Of a stretch of DNA of 64,000 bases, positions 5-14,625 are shown piece by piece (the stretch's first letter is position 1; every line of letters starts with the position of its first letter). Under the pieces are notes generated by a model. That model did no database searches. It saw nothing but the letters and a program-made list of their open reading frames with translations, and was not told the DNA's origin. The translations under genes and the position numbers were made by a program. The stretch lies in NCBI RefSeq assembly GCF_032397745.1, contig NZ_CP135921.1:8048501-8112500 (forward strand), given 5' to 3'. This DNA is from Bradyrhizobium prioriisuperbiae (lineage in GTDB: Bacteria > Pseudomonadota > Alphaproteobacteria > Rhizobiales > Xanthobacteraceae).

Positions 5-841
5 TCACCCCGCCACGCTGGAATCGAAGAAGAAGGCGTTGTTCTCGAAGGCGCGGATCGCTTCCGCACTTGCCGTCCGGCAGAGATCGTCGGCGCCGGC
101 AGGCGCGGCGCGATACCGAATGATTTCGACCGGATCCTCGGCATAACGGGGCGACGGGTCGAGCGGATGCGGACAGTTTGACAGCGCGATCAAGAGATCC
201 ATTTCGGCGCGCAGGTCGACGAAATCGCCGGCCTGGCGGCGGTCCGCCAGCCATTGAAAGCGCCCCTCGGCATCGACACTGACCGGTGCAAAAAAGCTGA
301 TGCACGGCATCACGTCGCGCCGATCGAGCCCGAGCTTGCCGGCGGCAAGGATGAAATTGTCACGGGTGTTGCGATGAGCACCGGCCCCATAGCGGGCTGC
401 GTTGGTCGCTGCCGTCGAGCCGCCGGCAAGGGTGTCATGGCCGGCGCCGGTGTCTTCGATGATGCTGAGCAGCGTGCGGCCCATGTCGGAGAGGATCACG
501 CGTCCCTTCCGCAGGCTCGCTGCCCACTGCACCTTGATGGTGTCGGCATGGTTGAGCCGCTCGCTGGGGTCGGTTGCGCTCCACGCCAGCAGGCTGACAC
601 AGGATGCGCCGCTGGTGTTGATCAGCCGCAGCGCCTCGCCGCGGTTGAGGCGCGTGGTCCAGTACCAGCCGCCGGGAATGATTTCGCGGTGGACGACCGC
701 GCCGGCTGCGATCGGCGCGCCGTCACGCGATGTCGGCGGCGGCAGCGCGCGAGGCGCCTGCCCCTGGCCGGCGGCCTTCAATGCCTCGTAGCGCGTCTTG
801 TAGGCCGCGATCTCGGCCTGCTGTTGTTCCGTCAGGATCAT
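5..841 (-). CDS. DUF1989 protein, carboxyguanidine deiminase-type subunit (UAAP1-like)
   Basis: 278 aa. The central block, with WYWTTRLNRGEALRL, LLAWSATDPSERLN, SDMGRTLLSIIEDT and GHDTLAGG, is the pattern of the DUF1989 proteins long annotated as urea carboxylase-associated proteins (UAAP1/UAAP2). Proteins of this family have been shown to form a two-subunit carboxyguanidine deiminase that converts carboxyguanidine to allophanate. I chose the ATG at 841 because AGAAAGGG lies six bases upstream; the frame is open to 886. It is the fourth gene of an operon with an ABC importer, behind a guanidine-I riboswitch, which fits guanidine use. The partner subunit, carboxylase and allophanate hydrolase would be expected beyond the left edge. 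Family call is strong; the subunit assignment is less sure. Confidence 0.82.
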   Translation of the reverse strand: MILTEQQQAEIAAYKTRYEALKAAGQGQAPRALPPPTSRDGAPIAAGAVVHREIIPGGWYWTTRLNRGEALRLINTSGASCVSLLAWSATDPSERLNHADTIKVQWAASLRKGRVILSDMGRTLLSIIEDTGAGHDTLAGGSTAATNAARYGAGAHRNTRDNFILAAGKLGLDRRDVMPCISFFAPVSVDAEGRFQWLADRRQAGDFVDLRAEMDLLIALSNCPHPLDPSPRYAEDPVEIIRYRAAPAGADDLCRTASAEAIRAFENNAFFFDSSVAG

Positions 842-882
842 GGTTTGCCCTTTCTCAGACAAGCGCGCCGGGTCGTCCCGGC

Positions 883-1674
883 TCATGCTCCTTGTTTGGC
901 CGGGTCGTCCCGGCCAGAGCGAAATGTCGACAAATGACGCACGTCGGCGACGCGGCGTGGGTAGATCTCGAGATCGCGCGAAATGGTGGCGCCGTAGCGT
1001 TCACGCTCTTCAGGACGATTGCGGTTACGCTCAAACGCGATCACCCGCGTCGCCAGCCGGAACGCTTCGCTGAGGTCATGGGTCACCATCACCACGGTGA
1101 GCTCGGTCTCATTCCAGAGCCGTTTCATCAGCACATGGATGTCGGCGCGGATGCCTGGATCGAGCGCGCCGAACGGCTCGTCCAGCAGCAGAATTTTTGG
1201 GCCGCGCATCACGGCCTGCGCCAGCGCCAGGCGCTGCTGCATGCCGCCCGACAGCGAGGCCGGATATTTGTCTTCGTGGCCGGCGAGGCCAACCTCGGCG
1301 AGCAGCGCCATGGCCTGCTCCACCGCGGCGCGTTTGGCCGCACCGAACAGCCGGCCCGTCACCTTGGCCTGCTGCAGTTCGCGCCCGAGCACGACATTCT
1401 GCAGCACCGTGAGATGTGGAAACACCGAATAGCGCTGGAACACCACGCCCCGGTCGGCGTCCGGCTCCGGCTTCAGCGACTTGCCGTCGACCAGGATTTG
1501 CCCGCGGGTCGGGCTTTCCTCGCCCAGCAGCATGCGCAGGAAGGTGGTCTTGCCGCAGCCCGATGGCCCGACCAGCGCGATGAACGCGCGCGAGGCAACA
1601 TCGAGCGTGATCCGCTCCAGCACGATGTGGTCATCGTATTCCTTCCAGACGTCGTCGAAATGGATCGCGCTCAT
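883..1674 (-). CDS. ABC transporter ATP-binding protein (guanidine/urea-carboxylase-type importer)
   Basis: 263 aa cytoplasmic ATPase of the nitrate/taurine (SsuB/TauB-like) importer type. Visible motifs are Walker A GPSGCGKT, signature LSGGMQQR, Walker B ILLLDEPFGALD and the H-loop in MVTHDLSEAF. The start ATG at 1674 overlaps the stop of the permease (ATGA), so translation is probably coupled. A longer in-frame opening to 2040 exists but lies within the permease gene and is rejected. Substrate is inferred from the riboswitch and the DUF1989 neighbour: guanidine or a related nitrogen compound. Confidence 0.88.
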   Translation of the reverse strand: MSAIHFDDVWKEYDDHIVLERITLDVASRAFIALVGPSGCGKTTFLRMLLGEESPTRGQILVDGKSLKPEPDADRGVVFQRYSVFPHLTVLQNVVLGRELQQAKVTGRLFGAAKRAAVEQAMALLAEVGLAGHEDKYPASLSGGMQQRLALAQAVMRGPKILLLDEPFGALDPGIRADIHVLMKRLWNETELTVVMVTHDLSEAFRLATRVIAFERNRNRPEERERYGATISRDLEIYPRRVADVRHLSTFRSGRDDPAKQGA

Positions 1675-2489
1675 TCCGCCCTCACCGATGCGAACCAGGG
1701 AAAGGCCTTGCGCTGCAGCAGGCGCAGTGCCGCGTCCATCAGGAAGGCGAGCAGCGTGATCCAGATCACGTAGGGAATGATCACGTCCATGGCGAGATAG
1801 CGCCGCACCAGGAAGATGCGATAGCCAAGACCGGAATCCGAGGCGATGGCTTCCGCGGCAATCAGGAACAGCCAAGCCGGCCCCAATTGCAGCCGCAACG
1901 AGTCGATCAGCCGCGGCAGGATCTGCGGCAGCACCACCCGCAGCGCCACCTGCCAGGTCGAGGCGCCGAGTGTCTGCGCCTTGATCAACTGCTCGCGCGG
2001 CAATTCCAGCACCTTCATGGTGAGATCGCGGATGATGCACGGCAAGGTGCCGATCACGATCAGCGCAACCTTGGAATTCTCGCCGAGCCCCATCATGATG
2101 AACAGAATGGGCAGCAGCGCCAGCGGCGGCACCATGGAGGTGACGTTGACGAACGACGCCAGCAAGGCGTTCGCCGACGGCAACAGCCCGATCACGATAC
2201 CGAAGATCAGGGCGGCGACGGTCGAGATCGCCAGCGCCGACACCAGCCGCCCGAGACTCGCGATGGTGTCGGACAGCATCAGGATGGTGCCGGTGCGCAC
2301 ATCGACCTCAAAGCCCATGCGCTTGACAGCCTGCGCCATGCTGGACAGCGCAGGCAGCAACTTGTCGTTCGGATTTTCCGCCAGCCGCATGCTGGAGCCG
2401 GTGAAATACGCAATCAGGAGCAACACGAACGGCAGCATGGCGAGATAAAATCCCACCTGCCGACCGGGCTTGATGTTCATGAGGCGCAT
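1671..2489 (-). CDS. ABC transporter permease (guanidine/urea-carboxylase-type importer)
   Basis: 272 aa inner-membrane protein of the BPD_transp_1 (SsuC/TauC-like) family. It has an N-terminal membrane segment (YLAMLPFVLLLIAYF), several further hydrophobic helices and an EAA-type cytoplasmic loop around TLGASTWQVALRVVLPQILPR. Start ATG at 2489 is preceded by AGGAG at good spacing. It lies between the binding protein (gap of about 45 bases) and the ATPase (4-base overlap), forming a standard three-gene importer. Confidence 0.88.
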   Translation of the reverse strand: MRLMNIKPGRQVGFYLAMLPFVLLLIAYFTGSSMRLAENPNDKLLPALSSMAQAVKRMGFEVDVRTGTILMLSDTIASLGRLVSALAISTVAALIFGIVIGLLPSANALLASFVNVTSMVPPLALLPILFIMMGLGENSKVALIVIGTLPCIIRDLTMKVLELPREQLIKAQTLGASTWQVALRVVLPQILPRLIDSLRLQLGPAWLFLIAAEAIASDSGLGYRIFLVRRYLAMDVIIPYVIWITLLAFLMDAALRLLQRKAFPWFASVRAE

Positions 2490-2534
2490 GGCCGTCTCCT
2501 GCAGCAGCTTTCAGAGCCGTCTCAGAGCTTGCTC

Positions 2535-3608
2535 TTAAAGCTTACCTTTGGCGGCGGCGTCCATGTAGGTCGCGTCGAAGCGCAGCTTGATGTTGCTCTT
2601 GTCGCCGAGCACCTTCTTGTCGCCGAGTTCGATGCCGACGGCGTCGGCAGACTTCGCATCCTTGCCGAGCAGCGCCTTTTCGAACAGGAACTTGCGCACC
2701 CGGTCCATGGTGGTACCCACTGCCGCGCTCTTGGTGAAGGCTTCCGCGTCGGCTGCCTTGTCGAACAGCTTGGTCGAGGCGAGCTGGCTCTCAAAGCCGG
2801 CGAGATCGGTGCCGGAGGCTTTCGCCATGGCTTCCTTCGCCGCCTTGCCCTCTTCGCCAGCGGCGGTCATCTTGGCAATCGTCTCATACCAGATGCCGAC
2901 CAATGCCTTGGCGAAATTGGGATTATCCTTCAACACTGCGGTGTTGGCCACCATCAGGTCCATGATCTCGCCGGGGATCTGCGAGGAATCGAACACCTTC
3001 TTGGCGTCCTTGGATTCGAGAATTTCGGAGACGATCGGATTCCAGGTCACCACGGCGGTGACGTCGGCCGTCTTGTAGGCGGCGGCGAGATCGGCATCGG
3101 AGGTGTTGACGACCTTGATGTCTTTTTCGGCCAGATGCTTGCTCTCCAGCGCCCGCGCCAGCAGGTAATGCGAGACCGAGAACTCGACGAGGTTGATCTT
3201 CTGGCCCTTGATGGCGGCGAGATCGGCCTTGTTCTTCAGGATGACGGCGTCATTGCCGTTGGAGAAATCGCCCATCACCACAGCCGTGGTATCGACGCCA
3301 CCCGCGGCGGGAATCGACAACGCATCCATGTTGGTGATGGTCACGGCGTCGAACGCACCGGCGGTGTATTGATTGACCGATTCAACGTAGTCGTTGAACT
3401 GCTTCACCTCGATGGTGAGGCCGTATTTGTCCGCCCATTTCTTGACGATGCCGGTATCGGCCGCATAGCCCCAGGGCATCCAGCCGACATAGATCGACCA
3501 GGCGACCTTGAAGTCCTTCTTCGGCGCGGCCTGGGCGGGCGCCGCGATCACGGCGCTCAGCGCGGTGACGACAGCGACGGAACGGAGAAATGATGTGAGC
3601 TTGTTCAT
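2535..3608 (-). CDS. ABC transporter substrate-binding protein, urea-carboxylase/guanidine operon family
   Basis: 357 aa. The N terminus has a Sec signal peptide ending ...VIAAPAQA, followed by a mature NMT1/SsuA-like binding protein (KVAWSIYVGWMPWGYA, AGAFDAVTITNMDALSIPAAGGVD). It resembles the binding-protein family that accompanies urea-carboxylase (now guanidine carboxylase) operons. ATG at 3608 has GAGGGA upstream. It is the first gene after the riboswitch and terminator, so its expression should respond directly to the sensed ligand. Periplasmic location is inferred from the signal peptide. Confidence 0.87.
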   Translation of the reverse strand: MNKLTSFLRSVAVVTALSAVIAAPAQAAPKKDFKVAWSIYVGWMPWGYAADTGIVKKWADKYGLTIEVKQFNDYVESVNQYTAGAFDAVTITNMDALSIPAAGGVDTTAVVMGDFSNGNDAVILKNKADLAAIKGQKINLVEFSVSHYLLARALESKHLAEKDIKVVNTSDADLAAAYKTADVTAVVTWNPIVSEILESKDAKKVFDSSQIPGEIMDLMVANTAVLKDNPNFAKALVGIWYETIAKMTAAGEEGKAAKEAMAKASGTDLAGFESQLASTKLFDKAADAEAFTKSAAVGTTMDRVRKFLFEKALLGKDAKSADAVGIELGDKKVLGDKSNIKLRFDATYMDAAAKGKL

Positions 3609-3632
3609 GACAGATCCCTCTTGCAAATTTAC

Positions 3633-3673
3633 AAAAAGGGATCGGCGACAGACCATCGCTTTGCCAATCCCTT
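3633..3673 (-). terminator. Intrinsic terminator of the riboswitch expression platform
   Basis: On the minus strand an 11-bp stem (AAGGGATTGGC with GCCGATCCCTT, one G-U pair) encloses a 16-base loop and is followed by a short T run, 24 bases before the binding-protein start codon. It sits just after the riboswitch aptamer. A competing small hairpin, GCCAA-GGGA-TTGGC, uses the 5' arm of the stem and could act as antiterminator. Control by transcription termination is inferred from this layout. Confidence 0.72.
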
Positions 3674-3682
3674 GGCTAACGA

Positions 3683-3790
3683 GGTCTCCCGGGCTTTTGT
3701 CCCGCCGTGCACCTGCGAGGATGTCTCCCCCGCAAGCGGCTGCTCTCGGACCAGCGCTCTGCCAAAGCAGAGCCGGAACCCTAGCGGCCA
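3683..3790 (-). promoter_or_regulatory. Guanidine-I (ykkC) riboswitch aptamer
   Basis: On the minus strand the leader carries, in order, the conserved pieces of the ykkC/guanidine-I aptamer: CTAGGGTTCCG (3774-3784), a GCTCTGC/GCAGAGC hairpin, CTGGTCCGAGAG, then ACGGCGGGA with AAAAGCCCGGGAGA (3684-3707). The order, spacing and sequences match the family consensus as I know it. It sits between a sigma-54-type promoter and an intrinsic terminator, upstream of importer genes. Guanidinium sensing is family knowledge. The exact ends are approximate. Confidence 0.93.
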
Positions 3791-3805
3791 ACTCGGAAAA
3801 AGAGA

Positions 3806-5615: not shown

Positions 5616-6017
5616 CTAATCGCGGGCGACGAGATTACCAAGGTCACGCAGAAAGGTGAGCAGTTTGTCTAGCCCCTCAGGGGATCCGTCCCACACCCTT
5701 GCGGCTGCTTTGGCAAGCTGCTCCCTTCCGCTCTCCGCGTGTTCCGCGGCGTTGTTGGAAAGACACTTTTTTGCATAATTGCATAACTCGGCGAGAGTCG
5801 GAGTGAGCCGAGGCGGCCTTCGGTTCAGCGCACGGTGGACGCTCGACTGGTTCACGCCGACCAACTCCGCCAGCGCAGCATCCTTTAGTCGTAGGGAATT
5901 TTTGAGTTTAACGACCAGGGCCACGGCCTCGACCGCGCCCTCTTCCGGACTGACGGGCCGCCCTACAGAATTCTGAATTTCATCTTTTCTGCGCGCCACG
6001 TTTATGTAATAATGCAA
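5616..6017 (-). CDS. Small helix-turn-helix protein, divergent to NADAR gene
   Basis: Up to 133 aa. A helix-turn-helix is visible in LKDAALAELVGVNQSSVHRALNRRPPRLTPTL, of lambda-repressor/XRE type. The remainder (HAESGREQLAKAAARVWDGSPEGLDKLLTFLRDL) looks helical. The listed start at 6017 is TTG without a clear ribosome-binding site; a GTG about six codons in is an alternative. It is divergent from the NADAR gene with under 50 bases between, so it may repress that gene. Exact role unknown. Confidence 0.6.
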   Translation of the reverse strand: MHYYINVARRKDEIQNSVGRPVSPEEGAVEAVALVVKLKNSLRLKDAALAELVGVNQSSVHRALNRRPPRLTPTLAELCNYAKKCLSNNAAEHAESGREQLAKAAARVWDGSPEGLDKLLTFLRDLGNLVARD

Positions 6018-6044
6018 AAATTAAATCTTCACAAGGGGTCGGCG

Positions 6045-6545
6045 ATGAAGGAAATCCGCTTTTATCGTGCAAGCGAAAAGCCTTACGGCGTGTTCAGCAA
6101 TCTCTACAGGCGGCCGATCACATTTGAAAAGTGCGTCTATCCGACCTCCGAGCACGCCTACCAAGCCGGGAAAGCACGCAAAGAAGAAGTGCGCGATTGG
6201 CTTATGGCCGCGCCCTCCCCGGCGTTACTCGCGATGGCGGCGCATGGCCTCTATCAGTGGGACATCACCCCCGATTGGTCGAGAATTAAGTTCGACCGCA
6301 TGAGAGCTGTACTCAGGGCGAAGTTCACCCAGCACCCCGATCTGGCAGCTATCCTTCTCGACACCAAGGATGCAGTGCTGATCGAGACCGCGACCGTCGA
6401 TAACGCCGTCAACAGGCTTTGGGGCGAGGTGCCCGGCAAGGGCGGAAAGAACATGCTCGGGATAATGCTGATGGAAGTTCGCGAAAGTATCCGGCAAAAC
6501 AGCAACAAGCGGCGACGCAAGATCACCATGCAGGCGGCTGAATAG
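6045..6545 (+). CDS. NADAR family (YbiA-like) N-glycosidase
   Basis: 166 aa, full length for the family. It shows the NADAR/DUF1768 pattern: FYRASEKPYGVFSNLYRRPITF near the N terminus, PTSEHAYQAGKA, then FTQHPDLAAILLDTKDAVLIE, DNAVNRLWGEVPGKGGKNMLGIMLMEVR. Family members cleave N-glycosidic bonds. Some act on riboflavin-pathway ribose-phosphate intermediates, and others remove ADP-ribose from guanine as antitoxins to DarT-type toxins. ATG at 6045 has AGGGG upstream. The gene converges on the PfkB kinase gene with three bases between stops. No DarT-like toxin was found nearby. Confidence 0.85.
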   Translation: MKEIRFYRASEKPYGVFSNLYRRPITFEKCVYPTSEHAYQAGKARKEEVRDWLMAAPSPALLAMAAHGLYQWDITPDWSRIKFDRMRAVLRAKFTQHPDLAAILLDTKDAVLIETATVDNAVNRLWGEVPGKGGKNMLGIMLMEVRESIRQNSNKRRRKITMQAAE

Positions 6546-6548
6546 ACT

Positions 6549-7547
6549 TCAGTCGCGGCTACAACGCCCGAGCGTTGTCACATACGAGGTGGACGACTCG
6601 TCGATACCTCGATCAAGCATCGCGCGAACGCGGCGTGCACCGGCCGCGAGAAACAATCCACGAGCACCGGTAAAACCGCAATTCAGTGCTGCAAGGCGTT
6701 GCCCGAGCTGGATACCATCGAAGATATCTTCGACCTTCCAGCTTCCTTCGTGATACCAGCGCTTCAGGACGAGATCCAACAGACCAGTCGTCACCATGTC
6801 TCCCGATCCGCACGTGTCAACGACGCGCGGAGCAAAGCTGGACGGAAAATGACGCCGAACGTTTCCGTTCGAAACTGTCAATCCGTGAACCCCATGAGTC
6901 CTGATGATTATTGTTTCAGGATCAAGCTCGTCGTCAGCAATGTGTTTTCCAGCCGTCTCATCGGACAGCTTGATGACTGTAGCGCAACGAACGGCCCTAG
7001 TGAACAATTCGTCGTCAACCGACGCCGGCTCGAAGAAGATTAGAGCCCCTGCTCGTTTTGCCTCTTCCATCGCGAGCATGATCGATTCCGAAACACGATC
7101 TGCGTAGAAAATTGACACCGACTTCAATGTCTCGGCAGCCTGCCAAACGTGGTCATGATTAATCGATCGCCACTTTGGAAAGCGGACGAACGTCTGAGGA
7201 CAAGTTGAAGTGAATCGGTGAGTTGCGTTCACCGTATCAACGATTTCTACAATGACAGGAGAGCTTCCCGTGTTGGCCCGAGACACATAGCGCGTCTCGC
7301 ATCCAGCCTTCTCGAACTCGTCAAAGAGGAAACGGCCATGATCGTCGTCGCCGAGATTGACCACTGGGAAGACCGGGTGCCCCAGCAACGCAAGCGATAG
7401 CAGAACATTTCCACATGATCCGCCTAGAGCTTCCGTCGGAGCGGTATAGGAATCGGCATAGATCCGGTCGACAGCTGTCAGACCGGTGCCTGCGACGGCA
7501 GGGCGCGCCGATTGCAGCGTGAACTCTCTCGACCTCAATTGGACCAT
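6549..7547 (-). CDS. PfkB/ribokinase-family sugar or nucleoside kinase
   Basis: 332 aa. The first PfkB signature is visible as GGSCGNVLLSLALLG (about residues 42-56). The catalytic motif is DTCGSGD at 244-250, in place of the usual DTxGAGD, with the catalytic Asp kept. FEPA-type and IKLSDET motifs also fit. Substrate is not predictable by eye: ribose, nucleoside or another sugar. It is the last gene of a five-gene operon, 15 bases after the SIS-HAD gene. A biosynthetic or salvage step on a phosphosugar is the natural inference. Confidence 0.82.
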   Translation of the reverse strand: MVQLRSREFTLQSARPAVAGTGLTAVDRIYADSYTAPTEALGGSCGNVLLSLALLGHPVFPVVNLGDDDHGRFLFDEFEKAGCETRYVSRANTGSSPVIVEIVDTVNATHRFTSTCPQTFVRFPKWRSINHDHVWQAAETLKSVSIFYADRVSESIMLAMEEAKRAGALIFFEPASVDDELFTRAVRCATVIKLSDETAGKHIADDELDPETIIIRTHGVHGLTVSNGNVRRHFPSSFAPRVVDTCGSGDMVTTGLLDLVLKRWYHEGSWKVEDIFDGIQLGQRLAALNCGFTGARGLFLAAGARRVRAMLDRGIDESSTSYVTTLGRCSRD

Positions 7548-7562
7548 AACATGAACACTTTA

Positions 7563-9491
7563 TCAGAGCCGCCGCAGAACGGATACATCTAGTTGCGCTC
7601 TACCGGTACTTATCAGGCGCATGCCGCCGAGTATCCTTAACAGACCATCAGGACCCGAGACGTTGCCCGGCAGTAGATTCCAACAGGAAATCTCACGCGC
7701 GCACACCCGATCCACACTCAAGCCGAAGTCTTCACCAAGGAGCTCGTAGTCGTTGCCATAGCGATCCCCACTATCGCCGATCGCGAGCATTTGAAGCTGA
7801 CCACCGACCATCCTGGCCCGAATCGCATCAAGGACGCGCGGCTTGGCCGCCCACACGGGACAAATATCGATCGAGTGCCCGGAGCGGACCATTTTCAATG
7901 CCGGACGCGTCCCCACGATCTCCCGCAGCTTGCGTTGACCGTCGGGCGACGACACCAGTTTGTCGATACCGATCGTGATCTGGAGAGCGTTCGCTTTCGG
8001 AAGCCACCCGTTTAGGAACAGCCCCGCTTCGGCCTGGATGCAAGCGAAAGCGTCCGCTATTGCGGCATCCGACTTCAGACAAGTCTTTCGAATATCTTCC
8101 GAGAGCGGAGCGATGTAGGCCCCGTTGTAGTATCCAACCAGCACCCGATCCCAATGCTCAGCCGAAAGACACTCTCGCAATTCCTCGCCGACTGATCCTC
8201 CTCGGCCGGTCGCCAGCGCAACGGCAAGGCCACCATCCAAGAGCTTTTTGAGACTCTCTATGACAGGCTCGGTGGGTAATTTGCCTCTTTTGTCCGTTGC
8301 CACCACAGTTCCATCGTAATCGAGGATGAGGGCACCGAACTCTGCGGCTCCGAGACGCTCGATGAACTCGTCGCGTCGCGAACTCCAAGCTGCAGCCGTT
8401 CTGTTTGGTTCATCGACTTTCTGCTCAGACCGCCTCTTGCGGCGTGTGGAAGCATCCTCGCTCTCGATTGCAACGAGCAGATCTTGACCGTCGTAGATTA
8501 ACCGTCCGAAATCTGGAATTATGGGCTTTCCAGGGTCGATACGCGCCGCCTCTCCAAGGCCTTCGACGATCCCGAAGGAGGTTATAACCGCGTCAAAAAG
8601 GGTATGCCGGCCAGCAGCGCCGAAACCAAAGTGAATCTGTGGTATCGTCGACGGGATACACGATCTGATCGACTCCCAAAACATCCGGCTGCGATCGCAG
8701 GTCAACGCAAGCAGGACCGTACGATCGGGATGCTTACCGAGCCAAACGTGCCGTCCGTGCCCAAAATTACGGAAATCTGTCCGCTGTACCCTGCAGAGCC
8801 CCGCTTCCCAGCAACTGGTTTCGATCATGACAGCCGCGGCGCTCAAAGCAGGATCATGCAGGATGATCAGCGTGTCACGTCCGGCATCCCAAGCGCTCGC
8901 AACTTCTTCCATGGTGCGAGTTCGGCTCGAAGAAGACAGCAACGTCGCTGATCTCAGTTGAACCTGATCGCTTCTTTCAGTGACATCATGCCCCGCAACT
9001 TGATCACTTGCAAGAAGTAGCGACGTCACGGTTGAAGTGAGGGAGTGCGTCGCGAGGAATCCATCCTTCTGATCGGTCACGGGAACAACGTGGAGTCTGA
9101 CATCGCGACTATCCGCGCCAGCAACTAGGCTTCCGCCGCGCGCAGTGACGACGTCGATGCGGCGAGCATGTTCCTTCACCGAGGTCTGGAATGCTGCCCG
9201 GATATCGGCGTTCTCGCCCCCCGCGGTGAACAGCCACACTCCCCACATCGGCAACACGGGATCGAGTGCAAACGCCATCGGCGTCGTCACAGCCGTCGCT
9301 GACTGGAGCAGCCACGTCCTGCAAGACGACAGGAATTCGGCTCCAACGGCGGATCCTCCGCTTCCAACTGCCGCCACGGGATAATCGGCAGAACGCTCGA
9401 GAGCCTCGGCCAATGCATCCAACTCGCTTCCGCAGGCCGCCGAGATAGTGCTCTGCAAACGACTTACCTTGGCTGTGAAGACTGTAGTCAT
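7563..9491 (-). CDS. SIS (sugar isomerase) - HAD phosphatase fusion protein
   Basis: 642 aa from ATG 9491. Residues about 1-345 form a double SIS domain: phosphosugar loop VAAVGSGGSAVG at 39-50, FTAGGENADI at 88-97, and a second lobe with ETSCWEAG...FRNFGHGRH at 224-248. Residues about 385-625 form a HAD hydrolase of the Cof/IIB type: DYDGT at 391-395 (nucleophile D391, acid/base D393), ATGR 427-430, K550, and GDSGDRYGND 572-581. A basic linker (about 346-375) joins them. Isomerase and phosphatase in one chain suggests sequential steps on a sugar phosphate. An in-frame GTG at 9530 would add 13 residues. Confidence 0.8.
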   Translation of the reverse strand: MTTVFTAKVSRLQSTISAACGSELDALAEALERSADYPVAAVGSGGSAVGAEFLSSCRTWLLQSATAVTTPMAFALDPVLPMWGVWLFTAGGENADIRAAFQTSVKEHARRIDVVTARGGSLVAGADSRDVRLHVVPVTDQKDGFLATHSLTSTVTSLLLASDQVAGHDVTERSDQVQLRSATLLSSSSRTRTMEEVASAWDAGRDTLIILHDPALSAAAVMIETSCWEAGLCRVQRTDFRNFGHGRHVWLGKHPDRTVLLALTCDRSRMFWESIRSCIPSTIPQIHFGFGAAGRHTLFDAVITSFGIVEGLGEAARIDPGKPIIPDFGRLIYDGQDLLVAIESEDASTRRKRRSEQKVDEPNRTAAAWSSRRDEFIERLGAAEFGALILDYDGTVVATDKRGKLPTEPVIESLKKLLDGGLAVALATGRGGSVGEELRECLSAEHWDRVLVGYYNGAYIAPLSEDIRKTCLKSDAAIADAFACIQAEAGLFLNGWLPKANALQITIGIDKLVSSPDGQRKLREIVGTRPALKMVRSGHSIDICPVWAAKPRVLDAIRARMVGGQLQMLAIGDSGDRYGNDYELLGEDFGLSVDRVCAREISCWNLLPGNVSGPDGLLRILGGMRLISTGRAQLDVSVLRRL

Positions 9492-9617
9492 CCATCTACC
9501 GAATTTGTTCGCCTGCAGGTGCCACGCCACCTACGTTGCATTTGATCATAAACCGAATCGAGAACTTGTCTCTTGCAACTTTCCGGTGGATAACCAATTT
9601 TGAGCACGCTTAACGCA

Positions 9618-10733
9618 TTAGCTGACGACGTCTTCGGGCTCGACATCGTAGCTTCCATAGACGGGCCCGTGAAGCCAAACGTGAACGGCCATGTCGGGCG
9701 GCGCATCCAACTCCTTCGTGCCGGTCGGCTCGAACTCGTAGCGCAGCGTCTCGACATACTGAACCGAAAGATTGTGTTCGATTGCAGCCATCATTGCGCC
9801 GACCGCGATCACCTTGCTGCCGAACGGAGAAAGAATGAGTTGCGGGAAGAATACGCCTTCTACGGTTTGATCATATCGCGATTTCAGCGTCGAAATCGTT
9901 CGATAGCAATCGAGTGGATTGCGCTCCGACACATAAATCAGATCCCGCGCGTCAACCTGCCATTCGTTCAGGAGCTGCCCTTGATATTCGGCAAGAAGTT
10001 CATCGGCCCGCCTCGGGTTTCTCGCAGGAAAAGGCACTACTGGGCACACTTTGTACACGCTATCGAGCGTGTTCCTTATCTTGCGCAGCGTCTCAACCCG
10101 ACCGCGTCCCAACTGGGGTAACCAGATGCGAGCCACGGGAAGCGGCTCATAGCCACCGGAAGGACCCGAGTAGCCGCGGACGGACTGCACTTGCGGCGAC
10201 GGTTCCCCAATGATCCGGTCATCAAGCTCAGGGTTCGAAACAACCATCACGTGCAGACTCACACTGGGGTGCGCCTCAGCATATTCTAGCAGGAGCTTTG
10301 CCAAAGGAAATCCGATCCCTGTCGACAGCGCACTCATATCAAGCACGATATCGGTGATATTCTTCGGCCAGTCGTACTTTTCCAAAGCGGCACGAACGCC
10401 GTGGCCCCCAATGGGAGCCTGGTCATCTGCGGAGAATATCTGGATGTAAGCAATCCTGGCGTCCGCAATGACGCCTTTAAGTTGCGCCTCGGTCTCGTCA
10501 GCAAGTTTCTGAAGATTGGCAGCTGGATCGCCGCGCTCCTCTCGAATGAAAAACCCGTGCACACGAGAGCCCATCGCTGCCGAAAGCCGATGAGCGATAC
10601 GCTTAGCTCTCGGATCAAACCCAGCACCAGCCACAAGGACGCAATGGCGGGAAGGCCGAACAAAGTAATCGTCGATGAACTGGTAAACGCCTTCATCGAA
10701 ATGGGTGACGCAGTTCTCCCAATGCCGACGCAT
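9618..10733 (-). CDS. Uncharacterised Rossmann-like protein of the PRTase/AAA operon
   Basis: 371 aa, family not recognised. The N-terminal half reads like a Rossmann-type alpha/beta domain: HCVLVAGAGFDPRA (about 29-42), a helix, then ITDIVLDMSALSTGIGFPLAKLLLE and LHVMVVSNPELDD. The C-terminal half has LILSPFGSKVIAVGAMMAAIEHN and VQYVETLRYE, another nucleotide-fold-like pattern, and ends MAVHVWLHGPVYG. No signal peptide or membrane segment. It starts 5 bases after the AAA ATPase stop and is clearly co-transcribed. It could be a sensor, an enzyme or an effector. Confidence 0.7.
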   Translation of the reverse strand: MRRHWENCVTHFDEGVYQFIDDYFVRPSRHCVLVAGAGFDPRAKRIAHRLSAAMGSRVHGFFIREERGDPAANLQKLADETEAQLKGVIADARIAYIQIFSADDQAPIGGHGVRAALEKYDWPKNITDIVLDMSALSTGIGFPLAKLLLEYAEAHPSVSLHVMVVSNPELDDRIIGEPSPQVQSVRGYSGPSGGYEPLPVARIWLPQLGRGRVETLRKIRNTLDSVYKVCPVVPFPARNPRRADELLAEYQGQLLNEWQVDARDLIYVSERNPLDCYRTISTLKSRYDQTVEGVFFPQLILSPFGSKVIAVGAMMAAIEHNLSVQYVETLRYEFEPTGTKELDAPPDMAVHVWLHGPVYGSYDVEPEDVVS

Positions 10734-10738
10734 GACTC

Positions 10739-12646
10739 TCAGACCTCTTCTTCGACCAAGGCGAGATCAGAAGCCCGACGCTCCAGGAACCCGCCGCGAT
10801 TAAGAGTCAAACCGTAAGCAAGACAAACGGGGCCAGACAATTCGAGCAGACACCAAATCTTCCCTCCTTGACCGTAGTCGCGGATGGCCACGATTGCTCC
10901 GTAGGCGATCGCATACTTAAGGATCAGAGCAGTCTCGCTTTCGCTCGCGAGCAGATCCTTCATCTCGGCCTCAAGAACTCCGACTGCATTAGCACCTGCT
11001 CCCAAGGACGCGTTTGGCTCCGTAGATACGGTTCGGCAGTCGGCGGCAAACCGATCGGCCAAGGCGCGCACCCTTCGAGCGAACGGAAACCTCCAAGAAT
11101 CCATCATTTCCTGCGACTTTTCGCGGAGGGCGTTTTGCTGCTGCGCGGGCGTCAATGCCGGATCTTGATTTCTGATCGCCTTTGTCTCCATCCGCTCGAC
11201 GAGAGCGCCTGCCAGCTGCAGAAAAACCTCCGCATTCTCGTTGCTAGCATCGCAAAGATCATCCAATCCGAAGTGAAACGGGCGCTTGAACTTGTCGTTG
11301 AGAATCAAGCGCGCTGCGTCGGCGATTGTGCTTTTCACCCTCAACGGCTGGCGGGGCTCCGGGTCGTCCGCGAAGAGACTGCCGGTCAGACCGGTGGTAC
11401 GGACGATATAGCGATGCAGCAAGACGCGATACATCATGAGTCGGACATCTTCGCCAAGATCGACCGATTTCGCCCCCTTAACGTAGCGATCAACGATTTG
11501 CTCGATTTTCGTCTGACGGTCCTGCGAGATCCCGTGCTCTCTCTGTTCGCGATCGATAAGCGCTCGCAATTCGTTCAACTGACCGGCCGTGAGCCGAGGC
11601 GGTTCTTCGCTTAAAAGGTCCTTGAACCGGTTGTAGTTTCGATCGCGAAGCGGCTGCACGAGACGGAGGTAGCGATCCGCCATATCGGTTGCCATCCTGC
11701 GAAATTGACGGCGCTCGTCGAGACGAACGCTATCGGTCTGCATGAAGATGTCCAGATAATCGCGCTCCACCTTAAGACCAGGTAACGCATCTGCGTCCGC
11801 GGATCTAAAGACCGCATTGGGCGACAACGCATCCATCCTCATCATCATCCACCGCGCGAATCGGATTTCCCGCCTCGCGAGAGCTCGAAAGAGCGCTTCG
11901 AACTGCTCCGGATGCAGTGTGTGCACATCGTCGAGTATCGTCAGGGGACGCAGACGGCAGGGACTTCCATCCCAATCGATTTCGATTTCTTGAATCGCTT
12001 CGAAAGGCTGATAAGGCTCGCTCGCCTCCTTTGGAATATTCTCAAGGAAGGGAGGAAGTAGACTCGCCCCGATGGAATATACGGCCCTCTCGACGCTGCG
12101 AGCACGCTCGACAATATCCTGCGCGTTCGACCCGCCGATTTGTTCGAGCTGCGCTCCCGCGCCATCACGAGGAATGAATTTTATTTCAGTCACGCGACGC
12201 CGCCGATTTGCGGTAATGTTACGCACTAATTCGAGAATAGTGCGAGCCTGGATGAGAGCCAGAACGAGCTTGGTTTTGACCCCGGGCTCATAGGGCAGCT
12301 CCCAGAAATCGCGATATTCCGACTCCATCGGTATCCTGACCCCGGCAATCCTTGGCCGCTCATCCGCCGTAAAGCCACAGCTTGCGAGGACGGAGGCCAG
12401 CGACCGGTTGTTCTCGCTACTCTGGTCGCGGAGGATAGATTCGATAAGCCGAAACTCGACCAGGCTGGCCATCATGGTCTTACCGCTTCCCGGCGTGCCA
12501 ATAACCCGGACTGGATGATCGAACAGAAGCTCGCGCTTCTTATGTTTGGCTACAAACGTAGTCAGCGGCTCTGGGCTAACGATCGCAAGAAAAGCAGAGT
12601 CGTCTCGGATGTATTCCGTAGCGCGCCTGAGGAAGGGATTGGTCAT
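10739..12646 (-). CDS. ORC/Cdc6-like AAA ATPase of the PRTase operon
   Basis: 635 aa. Walker A is GTPGSGKT at 50-57 after RVI, and Walker B is LTILDDVHTL at 235-244, with the double Asp and following His typical of ORC/Cdc6 or STAND-like ATPases. The C-terminal 350 residues are helical and charged with no motif I recognise. Its ATG overlaps the PRTase stop by four bases, so the two are translationally coupled. ATPases of this kind often act as sensors or switches in conflict systems; that role here is inferred from context only. Confidence 0.8.
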   Translation of the reverse strand: MTNPFLRRATEYIRDDSAFLAIVSPEPLTTFVAKHKKRELLFDHPVRVIGTPGSGKTMMASLVEFRLIESILRDQSSENNRSLASVLASCGFTADERPRIAGVRIPMESEYRDFWELPYEPGVKTKLVLALIQARTILELVRNITANRRRRVTEIKFIPRDGAGAQLEQIGGSNAQDIVERARSVERAVYSIGASLLPPFLENIPKEASEPYQPFEAIQEIEIDWDGSPCRLRPLTILDDVHTLHPEQFEALFRALARREIRFARWMMMRMDALSPNAVFRSADADALPGLKVERDYLDIFMQTDSVRLDERRQFRRMATDMADRYLRLVQPLRDRNYNRFKDLLSEEPPRLTAGQLNELRALIDREQREHGISQDRQTKIEQIVDRYVKGAKSVDLGEDVRLMMYRVLLHRYIVRTTGLTGSLFADDPEPRQPLRVKSTIADAARLILNDKFKRPFHFGLDDLCDASNENAEVFLQLAGALVERMETKAIRNQDPALTPAQQQNALREKSQEMMDSWRFPFARRVRALADRFAADCRTVSTEPNASLGAGANAVGVLEAEMKDLLASESETALILKYAIAYGAIVAIRDYGQGGKIWCLLELSGPVCLAYGLTLNRGGFLERRASDLALVEEEV

Positions 12647-13788
12647 TGCAGGGATCCGTGCCTATCTCGTCGATAGAAGAGCGAACGCATCTTGTGTACG
12701 CCGCCCTTTCCTTCCGTCTCTGCCCACAGCAATGGGATGCTGTTGTTCGGCGTATTGTGCTCGAGAACGATGGGCAGAGCACAATCGGCATAGCCGAGCT
12801 TCATGTCTGTCTGACCAGCCTCGCGGCAATGCTTCTCGGCTCGGGTGAAAATTTCGTGGTCGTAATACTTGGCGCCAAGATCGAGCATGCGCCCATCGCC
12901 CGGCCGCAATAACCGCAGGGACATCGGAAGAAGGAGGCTCTCGGTGACAGTGTACTCCGAGCAAGTCCACTCGCTCCATTCCACTTTGGCATATTCCAAC
13001 CGCTCTACCAGCGCACCGCGGGCTTGAGTACTCGAAATGTAGTGATGGATATGGAGAGTATAATCTTCCGCTATCGGAAATCGATCTTTGAGCTCATTGC
13101 GGGCATTACGAATAAGGTCGTTGAACTTCTTCAGTTTGCCCTTCCAAGCACCATTAACGTTGCGGATGAACGTCGTGCCGGACGCGGTAAAATCGTCAAT
13201 CAGGTAGACGCAATCGAATCTCTCGGACGGTGCCATTCCTTGGACCTCCCTGAGGTTCTTGCTCAGATCAAGCCATTTCTCGGAGTCGACGTTCATCATC
13301 GGCACGACCTGCTCGGTCGAAATGCGACCTGAGTTTGCGCGTCTCAGCATGTCGATGCGACTTCCGTCGCTCATCCCTACGAAGAGCGTCTTTCGCAGAC
13401 ACTTCTTAAACGCGTCCGCGCCCCGTTTGTCGGTCCAGACCTCGTAGGGCTTGATTCCAAGCTTGAGCGCGACCGTTCGCCGCAGATGCGGGGTAACGAC
13501 CTCGGGGACGAAGGTTTCGACGAGGCGCTGCATTTCTGGCAGGGAAATGTAGACGAGGCGCCGCTTTATAAAATCGTACGCTGTGGCTCGATCTTCCGGA
13601 TCGAACTGCTTCAGCCAAGTCGCCAAACTCTCGAGAAACCGTACGCCGGCGCGGAAGTACGAGTAACCGTCGTACTTCACCGCGGACATCATGCGTAGCC
13701 AAGCGTACTCGTGAGTTGCTACTGTCTGATCATCCTCTGGCCATCCTATGATTTCAGCCAGAAGACTGAGCGCCATCCTGTCGTTCAA
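12643..13788 (-). CDS. Phosphoribosyltransferase-like protein, first gene of the operon
   Basis: 381 aa. The PRPP-binding loop VYLIDDFTASGTTF lies at residues 194-207 and matches the type I PRTase signature. The C-terminal block LGYADCALPIVLEHNTPNNSIPLLW (about 331-355) is what I associate with PRTase-like proteins that pair with ORC-like ATPases. The N-terminal 180 residues are helical. I chose TTG at 13788 because GAAGAGG lies five bases upstream and a sigma-70-type promoter at 13864-13891 would start transcription after the farther upstream TTG at 13860. ATG 13776 is another option. Reaction and base substrate unknown. Confidence 0.78.
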   Translation of the reverse strand: MNDRMALSLLAEIIGWPEDDQTVATHEYAWLRMMSAVKYDGYSYFRAGVRFLESLATWLKQFDPEDRATAYDFIKRRLVYISLPEMQRLVETFVPEVVTPHLRRTVALKLGIKPYEVWTDKRGADAFKKCLRKTLFVGMSDGSRIDMLRRANSGRISTEQVVPMMNVDSEKWLDLSKNLREVQGMAPSERFDCVYLIDDFTASGTTFIRNVNGAWKGKLKKFNDLIRNARNELKDRFPIAEDYTLHIHHYISSTQARGALVERLEYAKVEWSEWTCSEYTVTESLLLPMSLRLLRPGDGRMLDLGAKYYDHEIFTRAEKHCREAGQTDMKLGYADCALPIVLEHNTPNNSIPLLWAETEGKGGVHKMRSLFYRRDRHGSLQ

Positions 13789-13863
13789 ATGAGCCTCTTC
13801 AATAGCAGGTCGTATCTGAAAATGTTGCGAATCGCCGCGAGCACGATGAACTGTTCGCAACCT

Positions 13864-13891
13864 GTTATACTAGTAGTAGACGATTGATCAA
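13864..13891 (-). promoter_or_regulatory. Candidate sigma-70 promoter of the five-gene island operon
   Basis: Minus strand: TTGATC (-35, complement of 13886-13891), 16-base spacer, TATAAC (-10, complement of 13864-13869). Transcription would begin near 13857, giving a leader of about 70 bases before the chosen PRTase start. It is the only good promoter I see for the operon, as the gene junctions downstream are tight apart from about 126 bases before the SIS-HAD gene. Confidence 0.55.
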
Positions 13892-14289
13892 CCGGCGGTG
13901 GAAGGATTGCGCCCTTCTGTAGGAGCCGGCGCAATACTATTCGACCTGCCAGCGCTCAGCCTTAATGGCCCGGCAAGCGCGCCGCCGAAGCGCCGGGGTA
14001 CCTGACGTGGCAGACGCCCTCGAGGCTGTCGGCCACGATATCGTCCCGGCCCAATGTCTGGCTCGGATCGACATCATCACCGACAGAACGCACTTGGCGC
14101 CATCGTTCAAATCTTGGTCAAGGCCATTCGGATCAACCATCATGGCAAGCGCCGTCGCCAGTACTCGTATCAGCATCACTGCGGTCAGCGCGCCACACAG
14201 GTCGACGATCGCCTGATGCTTCGCGAAGCTCCAGCCACAAATGGTCGGCGACCAAGCTTAAAACCCGATATGATATTAAGAGTTGACAC
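13892..14289. other. Stretch without a recognisable gene
   Basis: Several overlapping short open frames exist on both strands but none has a ribosome-binding site, a known domain or a credible length. A decayed mobile element is possible given the island setting, but I cannot match one. It may mark the right edge of the accessory island. Confidence 0.4.
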
Positions 14290-14625
14290 TTACGCCCGAC
14301 CGACGGTTTCCATCAGTTCGAGATTGACCGCCGGCTTGACCATGGCCGCGTCTCCGACGGCAGCCAACATCGTTTCGATATCCCGCTCCGATGTCGGCTG
14401 CCAGCCACATGGACACGACTGATTCTGGTGCGCTGCCGCCACCTGCCGATACACCGACCCGAGCGCTTCAGCCATCATCCGCATGACGGCCATCGGCGGC
14501 AGTCGCGATCCATCGAGCACACGGCAGAACGTCGTCATCAACGTTCGATCGAGATCGGCCTGAGTCGTTTGGGAATCGTCACCGTCCGATACGACCTTGC
14601 GCTGCTCGAGCATTCGCATCTCCAT
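14290..14625 (-). CDS. Hypothetical protein with CPCGW motif
   Basis: About 111 aa. Not recognised. Visible are a helical stretch RTLMTTFCRVLDGSRLPPMAVMRMMAEALGSVYRQ and the short cysteine motif SCPCGW, which resembles small proteins of rhizobia that I cannot name. The frame is open up to 14691; 14625 is an internal ATG, and other ATGs close by are equally possible since none has a strong ribosome-binding site. Opposite-strand frames overlap it, so coding status is uncertain. Confidence 0.4.
   Translation of the reverse strand: MEMRMLEQRKVVSDGDDSQTTQADLDRTLMTTFCRVLDGSRLPPMAVMRMMAEALGSVYRQVAAAHQNQSCPCGWQPTSERDIETMLAAVGDAAMVKPAVNLELMETVGRA

Follow-up and report, generated by a model that had tools for sequence, protein, structure and literature searches.

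The stretch analysed here (the window) is 64,000 nucleotides of the Bradyrhizobium prioriisuperbiae genome, a single contig of 9.08 Mb (NZ_CP135921.1, positions 8,048,501 to 8,112,500), and all coordinates below count from its first letter. It carries an operon of five minus-strand genes between 6549 and 13860, each overlapping or almost abutting the next, which encode a phosphoribosyltransferase (PRTase), an ORC-CDC6-like ATPase, a CARF6-family protein, a fusion of a double-SIS domain to a HAD phosphatase (SIS-HAD) and a PfkB-family kinase. An earlier sequence-only reading had proposed this coupled operon as an undescribed small-molecule or immunity system. We found that it lies within a larger conserved cassette, with the following features:

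12643..13788, minus strand: PRTase-CE protein in the putative effector slot (Pfam PF24390, 81 bits; alignment of 28; upstream comparison)
10739..12646, minus strand: ORC-CDC6-like AAA+ ATPase (PF24389, 23.7 bits; Walker motif residues invariant in 28)
9618..10733, minus strand: CARF6-family protein with predicted CARF-fold Rossmann domains, probable ligand sensor (PADLOC PDLC01910; fold)
7563..9530, minus strand: double-SIS phosphosugar isomerase/deglycase-type domain fused to a HAD-IIB phosphatase (predicted fold; Pfam HAD)
6549..7547, minus strand: PfkB-family sugar/nucleoside kinase (PF00294, 60.7 bits)
6012..6545, plus strand: NADAR protein (N-glycosidase family), convergent on PfkB (PF08719, 96.2 bits)
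5616..6017, minus strand: helix-turn-helix (HTH, Xre-like) protein, probable regulator, at the cassette end (PF20432, 25.0 bits, cut-off 25.8)
13864..13891, minus strand: promoter-like element TTGATC-16-TATAAC (comparison with five close cassettes)
5616..13902, no strand: full extent of the conserved seven-gene cassette (nucleotide alignment of five Bradyrhizobium cassettes)

The limits of the cassette come from five Bradyrhizobium relatives whose cassettes align with the window at 75-79% nucleotide identity. The match begins at window positions 5620-5766 and ends at 13798-13902, and outside it the sole aligned stretch longer than 150 bases was one 458-bp match far off, in L006. These limits define a cassette of seven genes, of which the NADAR and HTH genes are members, and leave the IS481 gene outside. 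The IS481 element was hence rejected as part of the system, since the relatives align only from 5620 upward. The sequence-only reading had placed the operon beside a NADAR gene and an insertion element; the former turns out to belong to the system (35 of 80 homologous loci), and the latter stays outside. Upstream of the operon, the TATAAC hexamer is kept in the window and in the five close cassettes, and the element precedes the likely start codons by about 76-88 bases; a promoter consensus scan of 13500-14300 found none. The open reading frame (ORF) of the PRTase opens at 13860, with a probable start at TTG 13788 or ATG 13776. The aspartates that the sequence-only reading had named D199 and D391 are the same PRTase-loop and HAD aspartates as those discussed below, numbered from later starts.

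Homologous loci were collected by one scan with a CARF6 alignment, which yielded 102 relatives, 80 of them kept as loci. The full set of five genes occurs in 72 of the 80, always on one strand (72/72); six of the eight incomplete loci are, going by their coordinates, cut off by the end of a contig within or next to the operon, and two (L040 and L052) are remnants. This bears out the coupled operon and demonstrates that the five genes are a real, conserved unit. The sequence-only reading had staked its claim on the five genes co-occurring elsewhere, and with 72 complete loci it was not refuted.

Two main gene orders were found. Order A, PRTase-ATPase-CARF6-SISHAD-PfkB, is that of 34 loci and the window, and order B, SISHAD-PRTase-ATPase-CARF6-PfkB, that of 35 loci (36 counting L042); in two loci the order is PfkB-SISHAD-PRTase-ATPase-CARF6. 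Throughout these arrangements PRTase, ATPase and CARF6 follow one another in that order without an intervening core gene. This holds as listed in 71 of the 72 loci, and the 72nd, L042, conforms by its CARF match site (10001-11077), its CARF ORF merely opening upstream. Further loci found outside the 80 show the orders SISHAD-PfkB-PRTase-ATPase-CARF6 (L131 and L150), order B with NADAR (L134 and L148) and NADAR-SISHAD-PRTase-ATPase-CARF6, with NADAR as the first gene of the operon (L132); the window's own order also occurs on an actinobacterial plasmid (L149). NADAR is present in 35 of the 80 loci, in the same place and convergent on PfkB, and all of these are order A where readable. The HTH gene is found in 29 of the 80, and beyond these two no flanking family is common to more than seven. 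Among 398 genomes of the phylum, a SIS-HAD profile (E <= 1e-10) and strong CARF6 matches pick out the identical six. The CARF6 model matches seven genomes in all, the weak seventh match coming from a different triad (L140), and PRTase-CE is above cut-off in 18, of which five are cassettes (the window and L131-L134) and one a triad, L123.

Active-site conservation was assessed in one alignment of 28 family members per protein. The PRTase carries the PRTase-CE domain (81 bits against a cut-off of 27), a phosphoribosyl pyrophosphate (PRPP) loop LIDDFTASGTT and a C-terminal HNTPNN motif, and D222, D223 and G228 of the loop as well as HNTPNN are invariant or nearly so. It also matches the PADLOC PRTase_III-A model at 50.7 bits. 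The same level of conservation holds for G50, P52, G53, G55, K56, T57, D239 and D240 of the ATPase. The ATPases of three divergent cassettes (L131, L132 and L133) pass the PF24389 cut-off with 99.5, 103.1 and 39.8 bits, and a profile made from the window and the 80 loci finds these same proteins with 160, 127 and 798 bits. Since catalytic and Walker motifs are invariant or nearly so across the cassette, the enzymes appear functional, as does the ATPase.

The third protein had been read as an unknown Rossmann-like protein. It matches no Pfam family in our scan and is identified by the PADLOC CARF6 model PDLC01910 (352.9 bits, E 4.6e-106); its closest named relative is also in Bradyrhizobium. 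Structural alignment of the model assigns it a predicted CARF (Rossmann-like) fold; plain Foldseek ranked cotransporter regulatory domains first, and the structural alignment was taken as guide instead. Solved relatives of the PRTase and of the CARF6 protein were sought by sequence, and none was convincing. Because the third gene encodes a CARF6 protein, the PRTase and ATPase, which had been taken as a sensor/switch pair of the conflict-system type, are part of a switch module that is a triad and not a pair.

A Csm1-type Cas10 (TIGR02578, cut-off 170) was above cut-off in none of the six genomes that carry the cassette, with weak matches of 22.5 and 19.3 bits in two of them, and the SMODS cyclase PF18144, the CD-NTase looked for as a sign of CBASS, was likewise above cut-off in 0/6; other cyclase and CD-NTase families lay outside this search. 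The window's own genome scores 24.3 bits to the Cas10 palm PF22335, below its cut-off of 27. The CARF6 ligand in these six genomes is hence probably not made by a Csm1-type Cas10 or a SMODS cyclase. A type III CRISPR ancillary role was rejected, no Cas10 being above cut-off.

The triad also occurs by itself. Eight triads of the PRTase/ATPase/CARF6 type that we examined carry no SIS-HAD, PfkB or NADAR, and their first slot is filled by PRTase-CE (L123 and L145-L147), HD-CE (L140 and L143) or a calcineurin-like metallophosphoesterase (L141, by domain scan, and L142, by the same arrangement). A DNA methyltransferase lies beside four of the eight; L123 is a PRTase-CE triad with an N6 methyltransferase and L140 an HD-CE triad with a cytosine methylase. 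The PRTases of the triads are 283-309 residues long, versus 366-381 in the cassettes. Relatives of the L123 ATPase are found on 152 plasmid records, 129 of them from Klebsiella and 135 conjugative, and the three such plasmid loci examined (Klebsiella, Moraxella and Paraburkholderia) all carry PRTase-CE, ATPase and CARF6, two of them with a DNA methylase. These triads without sugar enzymes indicate that the window's first three genes are one member of a modular family, to which SIS-HAD, PfkB and NADAR are an added module. Furthermore, the persistence of CARF6 when the PRTase is replaced makes it most likely that CARF6 and the ATPase are a general sensor-switch and the first gene an effector.

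Some of these loci deserve a description of their own. On the Klebsiella pneumoniae plasmid pKPHS2 (L145, 3831-8907), a DNA methylase, PRTase-CE, ORC-CDC6-like ATPase and CARF6 lie near repA; the last three are annotated as hypothetical, and plasmids of 4 of 5426 E. coli genomes carry the stretch. In L143 (530-7966, minus strand), the candidate defence system PDC-M33 A/B/C directly precedes an HD-CE/ORC/CARF6 triad and resembles its front half. In L120 and L121 (about 3.7-12.6 kb; domains scanned in L120), a PRTase-CE gene sits between a large NOV_C-domain helicase and NADAR, followed by a DUF1156 methyltransferase, which is a further case of a PRTase paired with NADAR, and in L126 (8093-10693) a PRTase-CE gene adjoins a reverse transcriptase in a retron type III-A-like arrangement.

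The remaining genes of the operon belong to sugar- or ribose-phosphate enzyme families, as had been anticipated. The SIS half is missed by Pfam, and its modelled structure has a double-SIS fold like those of GlmS and NagB-II, with FrlB as a further structural relative; the HAD half scores 28.7 bits in Pfam. The SIS loop G56-S60, E242 and H258, and in the HAD half D404, D406, K563, G585, D586, N593 and D594, are invariant or nearly so. E242 and H258 are spaced by 16, as are the catalytic Glu and His in GlmS; a SIS-only profile search for equivalence of catalytic residues gave one weak, uninformative match. In PfkB, D244, G247, G249 and D250 of DTCGSGD are invariant, and the best solved relative by profile is a fructokinase. 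NADAR, which has an alternative in-frame ATG at 6045, has 76 alignment columns with 95% identity or more across 36 rows, and scores far under the cut-off of the anti-phage NADAR family DS32_2 (62.4 against 240 bits). The HTH protein is weakly conserved, with 3 such columns across 30 rows, and falls just under the PF20432 cut-off, at 25.0 bits for 25.8.

Comparison of protein distance matrices (68 loci and the window; L046, L057, L079 and L080 left out) agrees in part with two modules. Over all loci, correlations are 0.96-0.97 among PRTase, ATPase and CARF6, 0.95 for SIS-HAD with PfkB, and 0.90-0.93 across. In order A the corresponding values are 0.94-0.96 inside the triad, 0.91 for SIS-HAD with PfkB and 0.78-0.85 between the blocks. 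As the pairs are not independent, these correlations serve only for comparing blocks.

The sequence-only interpretation is supported in part, and the lower GC content and mobile character that it proposed are among the points upheld. From about 4 to 14 kb the window has 55-58% GC and most of its other DNA 60-67%; across loci, 39 of 61 have an operon of lower GC than the DNA on either side, with a mean difference of 2.1 points (Wilcoxon p 0.0009). The CARF6 protein is encoded on 17 plasmid records, including 8 conjugative ones. In a CARF6 tree of 78 rows (L042, L079 and the window left out; some rows are metagenome bins), the two main orders are split and Bradyrhizobium turns up at four unconnected points, including one on the order-B side. 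The cassette is therefore mobile. We also scanned the 115 nearest flanking ORFs of 65 of the 72 complete loci, omitting seven near-copies or interrupted loci and with no control set; matches rest on the best 25 of 123 PADLOC families and of 80 Pfam families, several of which may be one protein. Among the matches listed, a conjugation coupling protein family accounts for 6 of the 115, and single proteins match Avs2, type I restriction-modification, DISARM and Gabija models. An empty insertion site was sought through relatives, four of which align with parts of window 31-3797 beside a guanidine transporter and one also over a 343-base stretch around 61.8 kb; no right-hand junction was recovered. 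The transporter genes to the left adjoin a guanidine-I riboswitch (3684-3795, minus strand) and a guanidine-II riboswitch (868-916, minus strand), the only elements in the window to reach Rfam thresholds. The guanidine-I element overlaps the substrate-binding-protein ORF as called from 3824, and the true start of this ORF is hence probably further in.

We propose, with a probability of roughly 0.55, that the cassette is a mobile, self-contained two-module conflict system, probably directed against phages or plasmids. This builds on gene content, linkage, catalytic motifs, two predicted folds and mobility, from which we infer each functional step. The PRTase-ATPase-CARF6 triad would be the switch: the CARF6 protein may bind a small ligand or sense infection in some other way, the ORC-like ATPase would relay the signal through ATP-driven assembly, and the PRTase, as effector, would after release spend PRPP (or attack nucleotides) and halt growth. 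PRTases have been called probable retron effectors, the mode of action of the retron PRTase being given as unknown, and a system of DprA and a PRTase confers protection from T7 and lambda (PMC9122126). The second module, formed by the SIS-HAD fusion, PfkB and often NADAR, would act on a phosphosugar or N-ribosyl product, and clearing or maturing the PRTase product seems likelier than independent work. The HTH protein probably regulates the cassette. On the chemistry, the frl operon removes Amadori adducts with a kinase and a deglycase (PMC12632257), and NADAR enzymes are described in PMC11543638 and PMC11833690 as cutting the N-glycosidic bonds of riboflavin intermediates and ADP-ribosylated guanine. 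Together with the likeness to FrlB and a PRTase that uses PRPP, this suggests N-ribosyl chemistry, with the second module presumably on its clearing side; plain metabolism would fit these facts too.

Several observations weigh against a conflict system of this kind. The window's ATPase, at 23.7 bits, is below the PF24389 cut-off of 27. Every enzyme looks active, which is compatible with plain metabolism too, and NADAR passes a metabolic NCBIfam model, riboflavin-intermediate N-glycosidase, with 81.5 bits against a cut-off of 73.7. Phage records yielded no copy, and neither did viral contigs, which were searched with a single sequence and with an alignment. The proteins flanking the cassette in the window resemble ordinary transport and metabolism (translations inspected by eye; guanidine riboswitches); of ten that we ran against PADLOC, three match (E <= 1e-5), all to models that we read as generic transporter domains (two ABC-type ATPases and one permease-like protein), and the IS481 protein has no match, so that the defence-type island claimed earlier is weak in the window. 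The second module is not fixed, given the absence of NADAR from all 36 complete order-B loci of the 80 and of PfkB from L132. In order B the correlation blocks are not separated, every pair being at 0.92-0.97, and the two-module contrast thus stands on order A and gene content. Finally, L046 and L080 have an interrupted ATPase or PRTase, and L040 and L052, in which part of the ATPase is left and no PRTase or SIS-HAD was found, are decayed or disrupted copies of the cassette.

The explanation that survives best beside a conflict system with a clearing module makes the second module an antidote or repair set. The PRTase would N-ribosylate a cellular or phage target (an amine, a nucleobase, a protein or a nucleic acid) with PRPP as donor, and NADAR, PfkB, SIS and HAD would remove and recycle the adduct, in parallel to the Amadori kinase and deglycase of frl. 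We hold this to be possible, at well under even odds: the shorter-PRTase triads (L123 and L145-L147; 283-309 residues) do without the second module, NADAR is absent from the order-B loci of the 80, and the substrates are guesses. Somewhat more doubtful is its extension to a writer-eraser immunity, where a PRTase controlled by the ORC-ATPase and CARF6 would put (phospho)ribose from PRPP on an amine or nucleobase in a macromolecule or metabolite and SIS-HAD, PfkB and NADAR would strip and recycle it. If so, PRPP-dependent ribosylation would be the conflict counterpart of NAD-dependent ADP-ribosylation.

Two further explanations are unlikely. One, near the hypothesis of the sequence-only reading that the operon makes, remodels or destroys a nucleoside-like metabolite, is a closed signalling loop, in which the PRTase makes a nucleotide-like messenger that HAD, PfkB and SIS trim and that is sensed by the operon's own CARF6 protein, with no Cas10 or CD-NTase. 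The predicted CARF fold, ribose-phosphate-type enzymes in one operon, and Csm1-type Cas10 and SMODS not above cut-off in 6/6 cassette genomes are consistent with it, but triads with HD-CE or a metallophosphoesterase retain CARF6, whose ligand is hence not generally a PRTase product; the two weak Csm1 matches, the Cas10 palm score in the own genome and the cyclases outside our search also count against it. The other, equally improbable, is a horizontally moving salvage operon for nucleosides or damaged sugar phosphates. Five intact sets of catalytic motifs, a chemically sensible pathway of PRTase, kinase, isomerase, phosphatase and N-glycosidase, and a NADAR above the cut-off of a metabolic family fit this accessory metabolism. 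However, the cassette carries no transporter, is rare and patchy (6/398 genomes) and on plasmids, and in other triads HD-CE or a metallophosphoesterase replaces the PRTase; to our knowledge, neither CARF6 proteins nor ORC-like ATPases are metabolic enzymes. A retron was rejected, with no RVT_1 among the eight window proteins scanned with Pfam and only guanidine riboswitches at Rfam thresholds.

As to novelty, no description of the operon was found in the open-licence PubMed Central papers searched, and an earlier published account of the triad or operon may exist elsewhere. ORC-CDC6-like, PRTase-CE and HD-CE are consecutive Pfam entries (PF24389-PF24391), so the core triad has probably been recognised by someone; with CARF6 named in PADLOC, it is a known kind. 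"Undescribed" thus applies to the seven-gene form with SIS-HAD, PfkB and NADAR, new within the literature checked. A PRTase is among the validated defence systems in a figure legend of PMC13092281. PRTases are a repeated feature of retrons, DprA systems and CARF6 triads; the cassette places beside one the enzymes expected to act on what it makes or spends, which turns the effector question into a metabolite question that four purified proteins could address. A second point of interest is a CARF6 sensor family with a ligand that is probably not a Cas10 product in the six genomes searched, and whose ATPase has relatives on 152 plasmid records, 135 of them conjugative.

Compared with known systems, the window protein shares profile (352.9 bits) and predicted fold with CARF6 of the CARF superfamily. 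Well-known CARF effectors are mostly sensor-effector fusions linked to type III CRISPR, whereas here CARF6 is a stand-alone sensor in an operon, with no Csm1-type Cas10 above cut-off in 6/6 genomes. The CARF classification is reportedly that of Makarova et al. 2020; the CARF6 name used here follows PADLOC. The PRTase-CE or HD-CE/ORC-CDC6-like/CARF6 triads, such as that of the Klebsiella conjugative plasmid, have the same three families in the same order as the window, whose ATPase scores below the Pfam cut-off of its family; the eight examined are without SIS-HAD, PfkB and NADAR, a DNA methyltransferase accompanies four of them and their PRTases are shorter. Retron type III-A and DprA-PRTase systems have related PRTases (PMC9122126 and PMC12548924), the likeness resting on the retron-type PRTase and not the DprA-linked one; in contrast, the eight scanned window proteins include no reverse transcriptase or DprA family. 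The Ter-linked nucleoside-like metabolite module (PMC7824862) likewise combines a PRTase and a HAD protein in a conflict-type operon, and differs in that none of the same eight proteins matches TerB, TerC or TerD. With the frl fructosamine operon (FrlB deglycase and FrlD kinase, the latter a PfkB family member) the cassette has in common the pairing of a double-SIS enzyme with a sugar kinase. Unlike frl, it comes without a transporter, and its SIS domain forms one protein with a HAD phosphatase and is linked to a CARF6 triad.

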